The notes beneath the pieces are model-generated. The model made no database searches and was not told the origin of the DNA. It saw only the letters and a program-made list of their open reading frames with translations. From Terriglobales bacterium (GTDB lineage Bacteria; Acidobacteriota; Terriglobia; Terriglobales; Acidobacteriaceae), in contig JACPNP010000050.1 of NCBI GenBank assembly GCA_016185365.1, positions 1 to 41,722 of the forward strand: a stretch of DNA of 41,722 nt. Reading direction: 5' to 3'. This document shows positions 4,667-37,262 of the stretch, one piece after another; position 1 is the first letter of the stretch; every line of letters starts with the position of its first letter. The position numbers were made by a program, and so were the translations under genes.

Positions 4667-4797
4667 CACTCTCGCCGCACAGACGGGGGCCCTACGACTC
4701 CGCTCAGGGCAGGCTTCTGTGCCACCCTTTTCACTCACCGGACAGCCGGGGGGCCCTTCGACTCCGCTCAGGGCAGGCTTCCGTGACACCCTGTTCC
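4667..4797. repeat. Two tandem copies of a ~65-bp unit
   Basis: Two adjacent units share the core CGACTCCGCTCAGGGCAGGC (at 4695 and 4760) and imperfect flanks on both sides. With the two preceding features this fills most of the 364-bp gap 4444-4807; no gene is seen in that gap. A related motif, TTCGACTGCGCTCAGCGC, occurs near 37140-37156. Confidence 0.85.
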
Positions 4798-36348: not shown

Positions 36349-37074
36349 CTAGAGTCTCTCCACCGCCTCGAATAACTCCTGATAGTTTTCGACCACGAAC
36401 AGACGCGGCTGGACGTGGTCGATCTCGAACTCCTGGCCCATCACGGCGTCGAGCGAGAACGGGATTCGCTCACAATGTTCGCTGAGCGCGTTGGCGCAAT
36501 CCGCGCCGGAAGAGATCAATCCGCTGCCGTAGACCTTCGTCTCGCCCCCTTCCCGGATAAGCCCGAACTCCACCGTGAACCAGAAAAGACGGGTCAGACG
36601 CCGGACCTCAGCCTCCTCGCGCGCCGCGGCGGCGACGGCACCGAAACGTTGCAGGAAATCGGCGAACACCGGATCGGCGTGCATGGGCACATGGCCGAAG
36701 ACATCATGAAAGATGTCGGGCTCAGGCAAGTAATCGAGCTGCTCCGGTGGACGCAACGTGACCGTGGTGGGAAACTCGCGGCGCGCGAGGCAGGCAAAAA
36801 ACTCAGGCGCGGGCAGATATCCCGTGACTGCGATCGCGCGCCACCCGGTGCGCGGCGCCAGGCGCGCATTCATCACCTCCAGCCGGGGCACGCGGTCCGG
36901 CTCCAGTCCGATGTTGCGCATTCCCTCCAGGAACACGCGGCTGCCCACGTGTTCCAGTTGCGCCATGCGCCGGCCGCAGAGCGTGCGCCAGACATCGTGG
37001 TCCGCCGGCGTGTAGGCCGCCCAGCACTGACTGATCATGAGTTGCGGTGGAAGAACGGTGTTTATCGTGTTCAT
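36349..37074 (-). CDS. phhA: Phenylalanine 4-monooxygenase
   Basis: 241 residues, the short bacterial catalytic-domain form without the ACT domain. Converts L-phenylalanine to L-tyrosine with O2, Fe(II) and a pterin. Seen: RTGWRAIAVTGYLP (pterin/substrate side), iron ligands in PDIFHDVFGHVPM (two His) and FWFTVEFGL (Glu), and a late YGSGLISSG. ATG 37074 is fixed by GGAG nine bases upstream; TTG 37089 is rejected. No phhB (pterin carbinolamine dehydratase) is adjacent. The leader (37088-37262) has a Tyr-rich peptide ORF and a terminator hairpin, so expression is probably set by tyrosine supply. Confidence 0.96.
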   Translation of the reverse strand: MNTINTVLPPQLMISQCWAAYTPADHDVWRTLCGRRMAQLEHVGSRVFLEGMRNIGLEPDRVPRLEVMNARLAPRTGWRAIAVTGYLPAPEFFACLARREFPTTVTLRPPEQLDYLPEPDIFHDVFGHVPMHADPVFADFLQRFGAVAAAAREEAEVRRLTRLFWFTVEFGLIREGGETKVYGSGLISSGADCANALSEHCERIPFSLDAVMGQEFEIDHVQPRLFVVENYQELFEAVERL

Positions 37075-37087
37075 AAGTTTTGTCTCC

Positions 37088-37121
37088 AAAAAGAGATCGG
37101 CCCGCGATCGCTCGCGGGCCG
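37088..37121 (-). terminator. Intrinsic terminator in the phhA leader (attenuator)
   Basis: On the minus strand a perfect 10-bp stem, CGGCCCGCGA with TCGCGGGCCG (37121-37098), closes a GCGA tetraloop and is followed by ATCTCTTTTT (37097-37088). The phhA ribosome site GGAG begins immediately after the T-run. A terminator placed between a promoter and its own gene can only be regulatory. Confidence 0.85.
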
Positions 37122-37149
37122 TTGGGATGATGGCTCTGTTCGACTGCGC

Positions 37150-37224
37150 TCAGCGCATAGGCCTCCACCCACGTCCCGCATCGGACGCGTAGTAGTAGGC
37201 GTAATAGCTGTGCATGAGATTCAT
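37150..37224 (-). CDS. Tyr-rich leader peptide of phhA, 24 aa
   Basis: ATG 37224 to TGA 37150. Residues 1-13 read MNLMHSYYAYYYA, so five of six consecutive codons (7-12) are Tyr (TAT, then TAC); the rest is SDAGRGWRPMR. The layout is that of classical leader peptides such as E. coli PheL, whose core is FFFAFFF. It is too short for ordinary gene calling. There is no strong ribosome site; the promoter's predicted start leaves only two or three bases before the ATG, so initiation may be leaderless. The stop codon sits in the loop of a small hairpin (TGCGC-TGA-GCGCA). Inference: ribosomes stalling at the Tyr codons when Tyr-tRNA is short prevent the downstream terminator from folding. Confidence 0.8.
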   Translation of the reverse strand: MNLMHSYYAYYYASDAGRGWRPMR

Positions 37225-37233
37225 TGTGATTTC

Positions 37234-37262
37234 AGAATGCCGTAAAAGGACGGTTTCGTCAA
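37234..37262 (-). promoter_or_regulatory. Candidate phhA promoter overlapping the DUF2203 stop
   Basis: On the minus strand TTGACG (37262-37257), exactly 17 bases, then CATTCT (37239-37234). The -35 is near consensus, the -10 matches at three of six. Start would be near 37227. Read-through from nadA-DUF2203 would give an alternative message carrying the same leader. Confidence 0.45.

Follow-up and report, generated by a model that had tools for sequence, protein, structure and literature searches.

A putative tyrosine-sensing leader-peptide attenuator upstream of phenylalanine hydroxylase genes in Acidobacteriota and Gemmatimonadota

We analysed a 41,722-nucleotide stretch of DNA from Terriglobales bacterium (assembly GCA_016185365.1, contig JACPNP010000050.1; hereafter the window) and conclude with high confidence, in the absence of any expression data, that a ribosome-mediated transcription attenuator sensing charged tyrosyl-tRNA controls phhA, and that PhhA supplies tyrosine. 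A tyrosine-sensing attenuator had been proposed at this place in an earlier note on the window, and the proposal largely holds on the sequence evidence, namely the conserved Tyr run, the co-varying strands and the missing TyrA. The features of the locus are collected in Table 1.

Table 1. Positions of the leader elements and of phhA in the window
Feature	Position	Strand	Basis or remark
-35 box TTGACG	37257..37262	-	sequence; TTGAC peak at the corresponding distance from ATG in 97 related leaders
-10 box CATTCT	37234..37239	-	sequence; spacing in related leaders
Leader ORF MNLMHSYYAYYYASDAGRGWRPMR, 24 codons	ATG 37224 to TGA 37150	-	homologous ORFs in L003, L004 and L005
Regulatory codons 7-12, TAT TAC GCC TAC TAC TAC (YYAYYY)	37189..37206	-	unique among the ORFs of the window
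Strand 1, CGCGUCC, directly 3' of the Tyr run	37183..37189	-	consensus folding
Strand 2, UGCGGGACGU (UGCGGGaCGU), putative antiterminator 5' strand	37171..37180	-	conservation, covariation
Strand 3, ACGGCCCGCG (ACGgCCCGCG), putative antiterminator 3' strand	37113..37122	-	conservation, covariation
Intrinsic terminator hairpin, 10-bp stem, loop GCGA	37098..37121	-	terminator scan; covariation in 17 sequences
U-rich tail of the terminator, AUCUCUUUUU	37088..37097	-	sequence; terminator scan
Ribosome site of phhA, GGAGA	37083-37087	-	ATG at 37074
phhA, phenylalanine 4-monooxygenase	36349..37074	-	NF008877, PF00351 (Biopterin_H); regulated gene

The -35 box shares bases with the stop codon of the DUF2203 gene (37259-37261), and a 17-nt spacer separates it from the -10 box, which lies 9 nt before the leader ATG. 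The near-consensus -35 box claimed in the earlier note is where it was said to be, but the promoter as a whole is only modest, with 8 of 12 matches to the consensus, and a consensus promoter scan with a threshold of 9/12 found none in 3 kb. The 5' untranslated region of the window leader is predicted to comprise a few nucleotides at most. In the ORF listing, the leader ORF is the 3' portion of a longer frame starting with TTG; its 24 codons and the YYAYYY sequence at codons 7-12 are present as described, and the run contains five Tyr codons and no codon for Phe or Trp. The perfect 10-bp GC-rich hairpin with a U-tract before the phhA ribosome site is likewise present; nine of its pairs are G-C and the tail reads ATCTCTTTTT. 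In 3 kb, six terminator-like sites were listed against 2.2 expected, and this hairpin has the most pairs among them. The presence of the ORF, of its codon run and of the terminator is thus a matter of observation. The product of phhA reached 289 bits against NF008877, exceeding the cut-off of 247, and E = 6.7e-45 against Biopterin_H (PF00351); against a second model, TIGR01267, it reached 235 bits, below the cut-off of 264.75. Family searches with the leader peptide gave no match.

Among the 528 short-ORF candidates in the window, the leader ORF alone has five (or even four) Tyr codons within six codons, and no ORF with at least four Tyr in six codons was found in 20 base-shuffled windows or among 1494 ORF candidates from 26 loci of the family without the leader. 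Judging from these comparisons, chance appears to explain the Tyr-rich ORF poorly, and the decisive point is its conservation in the three closest relatives. As a separate observation, GCGCTGAGCGCAGTCGAA, around the leader stop codon (37139-37156, minus strand), recurs at 4757-4774 and 4693-4710 (minus strand) in copies with 2 and 3 mismatches, where 0.05 matches were expected, and looks like a small dispersed repeat overlapping the end of the leader.

PhhA was detected in 50 of the 150 genomes of the family, and four of these 50 phhA loci have the leader, namely the window and L003, L004 and L005. The latter three belong to one neighbouring genus, are the closest relatives (PhhA 62-65% identical to that of the window) and carry MRFTATYAYYYYATRDTGRVWRRMR or a similar leader followed by a 13-14 bp terminator before phhA. 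The covariance model R1 has no full-length match up to E = 1 at the other 46 loci, and none of them showed a Tyr-run leader followed by a terminator: L271 has a long frame containing Tyr and no terminator, L268 and L021 have a hairpin resembling a terminator but lack such an ORF, and L012 has neither leader nor terminator. The leader could not show in L265, for which only 177 nt upstream of phhA were available. Named genomes yielded 552 phhA loci, of which the best 80 were examined; 15 of these had the leader, 14 by preset criteria (Tyr-rich ORF and terminator) and one, the two-Tyr leader of L062, by eye. Twelve of these leader loci carry the label Gemmatimonadota, and three are Acidobacteriales or Acidobacteriaceae MAGs; two of the 15 (L032 and L043) are the same records as L003 and L005. 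In the remaining 65 loci such an ORF is missing; three of them have a terminator-like hairpin and 62 do not, although a leader could not show in L101, for which no sequence upstream of phhA was available.

According to the earlier note, homologous leaders that kept the hairpin without a Tyr run would refute the proposal. The outcome favours the proposal: none of the three close relatives lacks the Tyr run, nor does any of the 24 Gemmatimonadota matches to R1 before phhA, of which 21 have at least three Tyr codons in nine and the other three have two. Note that R1 somewhat favours Tyr codons and that seven of the 24 (L147, L149, L151, L152, L159, L163 and L178) were training sequences of the model. 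In the phylum of the window, the leader before phhA in L113 reads TYAY, with two Tyr only.

The terminator and the putative antiterminator were evaluated in an alignment of 17 leaders, in which the antiterminator corresponds to columns 61-70 paired with columns 127-136. The antiterminator is paired in 88% of the cells, with four pairs changed on both sides, and slid versions reach at most 45%; among 500 shuffles, none was as high in cells paired or in covariation score, two were as high in pairs changed and 83 in pair types. The terminator is paired in 94% of the cells; both partners are changed in eight of its pairs, and slid versions do not exceed 47%. In a set of 90 leaders, 78 taken from the 106 retrieved model matches and 12 from elsewhere, the eight core pairs of the antiterminator are formed in 649 of 702 cells (92%), compared with 24-48% when slid and a shuffled mean of 88.8%, and none of 500 shuffles was as high; the two of the ten pairs outside the core count are formed in 62 of 89 and 57 of 87 cells. 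The shuffle tests leave the relatedness among the leaders in place. Strand 3 of the antiterminator overlaps the 5' arm of the terminator (37121-37112). Covarying stems had been named as a check of the proposal, and both the terminator and the second of the two antiterminator options then suggested, UGCGGG (37180-37175), do co-vary, the latter being part of the conserved strand UGCGGGaCGU. The option originally preferred, CGUGGGU (37173-37167), is not conserved, the relatives having CGUGUGU or CGUGUGC there, and is not supported as the antiterminator strand. In L040 (1477-1619), the terminator and antiterminator strands are both replaced by another sequence and by eye still pair, CCGGGAGC with GCUCCCGG.

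RNAalifold indicated a third pairing, overlooked in the earlier scheme, between GCGaCCC just after the Tyr run and GGGaCGY of strand 2; in the window, strand 1 can pair with GGACGUG (37176-37170), as read by eye. This 1:2 pairing is formed in 93% of the cells (slid versions at most 48%) with little covariation, and 58 of 500 shuffles were as high in cells paired. Its mean fold energy is -8.4, compared with -6.1 when the upstream strand is shuffled, and 82 of 90 rows are more stable. A hairpin within strand 2 (CACG-GGA-CGUG) was considered as well; it is present in the leaders of Acidobacteriales and, by eye, absent in several of those of Gemmatimonadota, and was therefore dropped in favour of the 1:2 pairing. 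The predicted strand set of 1:2, 2:3 and 3:4 is complete, with 1:2 the least proven. When the window RNA was folded from strand 2 to the terminator loop, the antiterminator formed; with strand 2 hidden the terminator formed, as it did in the free full RNA. Sixty-five leaders could be measured (25 of the 90 rows were excluded, no frame being found); the last cognate codon starts 14 nt before strand 2 in 35 of them and 11-15 nt before it in 54, and by eye the last Tyr codon of the window starts 11 nt before strand 2. Such a spacing approximates the reach of a ribosome from its A site to its leading edge, and in these alignments it fits a stalled ribosome.

Alignment of the 97 leaders at their ATG showed a TTGAC peak between positions -36 and -32, TA...T between -12 and -7, and a Shine-Dalgarno-like motif in only 7. 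A promoter pair with at least 8 of 12 matches is present in 79 of the 97 leaders (4.8 on average and at most 13 in base shuffles). In 64 the -10 box lies 5-9 nt upstream of the ATG (0.8 on average and at most 4 in shuffles), at 6 or 7 nt in 51; the distance of 9 nt in the window is outside the common 6-7. These positions suggest that the leaders are probably leaderless and without a Shine-Dalgarno site, an inference for which no start site has been mapped. The leader ORF is as the earlier note described it; the probable leaderless start had been missed.

The locus would also be explained if the hairpin merely terminated transcription of the DUF2203 gene and the Tyr-rich ORF were a chance frame. 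The DUF2203 stop codon does lie just upstream, and terminators after genes are common. However, tblastn (E <= 1e-3) detected no relative of DUF2203 in 47 leader loci before phhA or other genes, where leader and hairpin persist. A chance frame would not be expected to stand 5-9 nt behind the -10 box of a promoter-like pair as often as observed above (64 of 97 against a shuffle mean of 0.8), or to contain a strand that co-varies with the hairpin, and a Tyr-rich ORF of this kind is unique in the window. We regard this explanation as very unlikely.

Under the attenuator reading, transcription would begin at the AUG of the leader ORF or a few nucleotides upstream, so that the first ribosome would load on an mRNA that is leaderless or nearly so. 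With ample Tyr-tRNA, the ribosome would clear the Tyr run, strand 2 would be covered or re-paired with strand 1, the 3:4 terminator would form and phhA would remain untranscribed. When Tyr-tRNA is scarce, the ribosome would stall at codons 7-12, cover strand 1 and free strand 2, which begins roughly one ribosome edge beyond the last Tyr codon; pairing of strands 2 and 3 would then block the terminator, and phhA would be made. Within this scheme, the conserved antiterminator is established by the comparison of the leaders, and stalling, Tyr-dependent read-through and translation of the leader itself are inferred, no transcript or ribosome-profiling data being available.

Beyond the proposed attenuator on phhA, the same scaffold was found before other genes. 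R1 was run with Infernal's stricter filters on 347 genomes of the phylum of the window and 249 Gemmatimonadota genomes, and matched in 41 of the former (E <= 0.01; many to the terminator only) and 92 of the latter (E <= 0.001). We took the 105 Gemmatimonadota matches that span R1 and classed the downstream genes by tblastn against representatives of the set, and seven by eye. They comprised 45 DAHP synthase genes, 24 phhA, 20 hisG, six prephenate dehydratase genes, four chorismate mutase genes or TyrA fusions, one metK-like gene and five unknown, with L251 from the genome of the window as a sixth unknown in this classification; Pfam confirmed nine representatives (four DAHP synthases, one HisG, two prephenate dehydratases [PDT], one chorismate mutase and one chorismate mutase-TyrA). 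The best nine-codon windows contain 36% Tyr and 3% Phe before the 24 phhA genes, 36% Tyr and 16% Phe before the 45 DAHP synthase genes, 48% Phe and 4% Tyr before the six prephenate dehydratase genes, and 66% His before the 20 hisG genes. In Gemmatimonadota, the codon run matches the product of the downstream gene. The frame was picked by the richest Y/F/H/W window identically in all classes, so the differences between the classes were not made by the choice of frame.

The His-run leaders before hisG on the same scaffold are L210, L211, L214, L216, L218, L221, L222, L228, L231, L232, L234, L237 and L241-L248. Among the matches in the phylum of the window, those inspected were L112-L117, L119, L123, L126 and L251. 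Of these, L114 and L115 (genus g107) have an FYFYFYF leader before a prephenate dehydratase gene, confirmed with Pfam in L114, and L117 has an HYYYGSH leader before the ferredoxin-like domain of DAHP synthase. The 120-aa frame in L117 (1673-2032) matches that domain only, and the gene is either a broken frame or a split gene. The start of the leader is cut off in L116, and no leader ORF was seen at the R1 matches L119, L123 and L126. Weak R1 matches without such an ORF in L251 (genome of the window, contig 26) and L233 (before the metK-like gene) are probably due to chance.

In G089, one of the three leader-bearing relatives, a Phe/Tyr-rich leader ORF, MHRFAYFAFTYRYSFTGLAAEAERVHAHHKIS, precedes a chorismate mutase-PDT-DAHPS operon (L254, 2443-2541, minus strand). 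It has TTGACA/TATAGT upstream and, by eye, a hairpin of AGCCGCGAT and ATCGCGGCT before T; the terminator scan listed none there, and R1 gave 8.4 bits (E = 0.38).

These leaders bear on the question of whether the attenuator, if real, responds to slow translation in general or to aromatic amino acids at large, instead of tyrosine. The DAHP synthase leaders with the same scaffold mix Phe and Tyr, and the Phe-Tyr-Phe leader of Corynebacterium glutamicum aroF reportedly answers Phe and not Tyr (PMC11802643). Against such a broad signal, the run in the window has five Tyr codons without Phe or Trp, and the excess of Tyr over Phe before phhA is reversed in the pheA leaders. Moreover, G089 combines a mixed Phe/Tyr run on the operon with a run of Tyr alone on phhA, which favours Tyr specificity of the latter. 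We thus consider a broader signal improbable and retain the sensing of tyrosyl-tRNA.

The role of PhhA was examined through other enzymes of tyrosine metabolism. TyrA (PF02153) was found in 139 of the 150 genomes of the family at E <= 0.001 (136 above the cut-off), and in 44 of the 46 genomes that have phhA without the leader (42 at E < 1e-13). It was not found in the four leader-phhA genomes, G000 (that of the window), G022, G089 and G144, which are 89, 100, 83 and 84% complete, respectively, and the check for tyrA suggested in the earlier note thus turned out in its favour. Homogentisate dioxygenase (HgmA) was found in none of these four, compared with 36 of the 46 phhA genomes without the leader. 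Fisher tests gave P = 7e-5 for TyrA (3e-4 with the stricter TyrA count) and P = 0.004 for HgmA, although these values overstate independence because the four genomes represent two genera. With neither TyrA nor HgmA detectable in any of the four leader-phhA genomes, these bacteria probably obtain their tyrosine through PhhA, as far as can be inferred from gene content. Pterin dehydratase, needed by PhhA, was present in all 14 chosen genomes and chorismate synthase in all seven genomes. Prephenate dehydratase (PF00800) was found in G089, G018 and G043 and was not found in G000, G022 and G144, where chorismate synthase is present; the latter three may import phenylalanine or make it otherwise.

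PhhA could alternatively serve phenylalanine breakdown, with Tyr-tRNA control only averting an excess of tyrosine. Homogentisate dioxygenase is indeed common in the phhA genomes of the family that lack the leader (the 36 of 46 above), but it is missing along with TyrA from all four leader-phhA genomes, including G022, which is listed as 100% complete, and a shortage of the product is not expected to switch on a catabolic gene. Breakdown therefore seems unlikely to us; in the lineage of the window, PhhA would supply tyrosine and would not start phenylalanine breakdown, a physiological role inferred without growth data.

The situation in Gemmatimonadota is less uniform. Of 82 Gemmatimonadota genomes with phhA, 24 have an R1 match directly upstream of the gene; TyrA (E <= 1e-6) was found in 8 of these 24 and in 33 of the 58 without an adjacent match, whose loci were not individually inspected (P = 0.09). 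The difference is a trend only (P = 0.22 at E <= 1e-3 and P = 0.046 at 1e-13), and TyrA is present in 116 of 167 genomes without phhA. We used the count at E <= 1e-6 on the basis of the weak matches read by eye, among which L255 and L257-L260 resemble TyrA or chorismate mutase-TyrA and L262 resembles another dehydrogenase. PhhA is often not the sole tyrosine route in this phylum, because 8 of the 24 leader-phhA genomes have TyrA. The lack of detectable TyrA in the genome of the window and its relatives with the leader supports the view of PhhA as a regulated tyrosine supply, put forward in the earlier note, which is qualified by the frequent presence of TyrA in Gemmatimonadota and by the lack of growth data. 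The occurrence of the same switch before phhA and, elsewhere, before related genes suggests that PhhA is a tyrosine maker in some bacteria, and the leader argues, from regulation, that the bacterial enzyme can act anabolically, as a tyrosine synthase. Loss of phhA is predicted to cause tyrosine auxotrophy where TyrA is missing.

We reconstructed a tree of 107 PhhA proteins, omitting L003 and L005 (identical to L032 and L043) and L011 and L012, which failed the motif test. The 18 leader-bearing PhhA group with nine without the leader (Gemmatimonadota and one Bryobacterales MAG), in a fork of 26 supported at 88/88 with L049 alongside, and 24 PhhA of the family without the leader are separate from this group at 100/100 on a long branch. 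The tree suggests that phhA was transferred together with its leader between phyla; the direction and a single origin are unresolved, and singly the MAG contigs could be mis-binned. L033, labelled Bryobacterales, has a PhhA that nests among Gemmatimonadota, by transfer or as a mis-binned contig. A wider picture, in which Gemmatimonadota and some Acidobacteriota share one leaderless attenuator scaffold with a swapped codon run (Tyr, Phe or His), and in which transfer of phhA and its Tyr leader as one unit between the phyla let hydroxylation of phenylalanine replace the prephenate route to tyrosine under Tyr-tRNA control, appears to us evenly balanced between being right and wrong.

A described RNA element without a translated leader, such as a tRNA-binding T-box, would be a further possibility, and tyrosine genes are described as being under T-boxes in other bacteria, with no conserved RNA structure seen upstream of Tyr operons in Actinobacteria (PMC1262725). 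An Rfam scan of 2 kb at E up to 5 gave five chance-like matches, none within 37088-37262, no element reached the gathering score in eight related loci, and the codons of the leader frame change with the target gene. We find a T-box or other described element scarcely credible here and keep the translated leader.

Leader-peptide attenuators of the PheL, TrpL and HisL type are known in Proteobacteria, and a Tyr T-box stands upstream of Bacillus phhA. The phhA leader resembles the former in its run of cognate codons, its alternative 1:2, 2:3 and 3:4 pairings and its intrinsic terminator before the gene; it differs in having Tyr codons, a hydroxylase target, no Rfam match and probably no Shine-Dalgarno site. 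The Bacillus T-box likewise places phhA under the control of tRNA-Tyr charging, with PhhA as a tyrosine supplier, but acts by direct tRNA binding without a translated leader. The earlier note knew of no described Tyr-codon attenuator on a phenylalanine hydroxylase gene, and in the open-access literature we too found no leader dedicated to Tyr codons, no attenuator of phhA and no attenuators in Gemmatimonadota. Among other known systems, the aroR leader of C. glutamicum aroF (Phe-Tyr-Phe; Neshat et al. 2014; PMC11802643, PMC4046766) is similar in preceding a DAHP synthase gene and acting by ribosome-mediated attenuation, whereas its reported response is to Phe and not Tyr and it is not on phhA, the phhA leaders having Tyr runs. 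The trpL RNA of Sinorhizobium meliloti, which begins with the leader ATG (PMC7298713), and the uORFs rich in Cys for which a role as attenuating peptides has been proposed in mycobacteria (PMC4633059) share an ORF that lies at the 5' end of the mRNA or close to it, with the pathway amino acid in the peptide, and differ in having Trp or Cys instead of Tyr, in other phyla and before other genes. The mechanism is thus a known one, and, as far as the open-access literature shows, the specificity, the target and the phyla are new.
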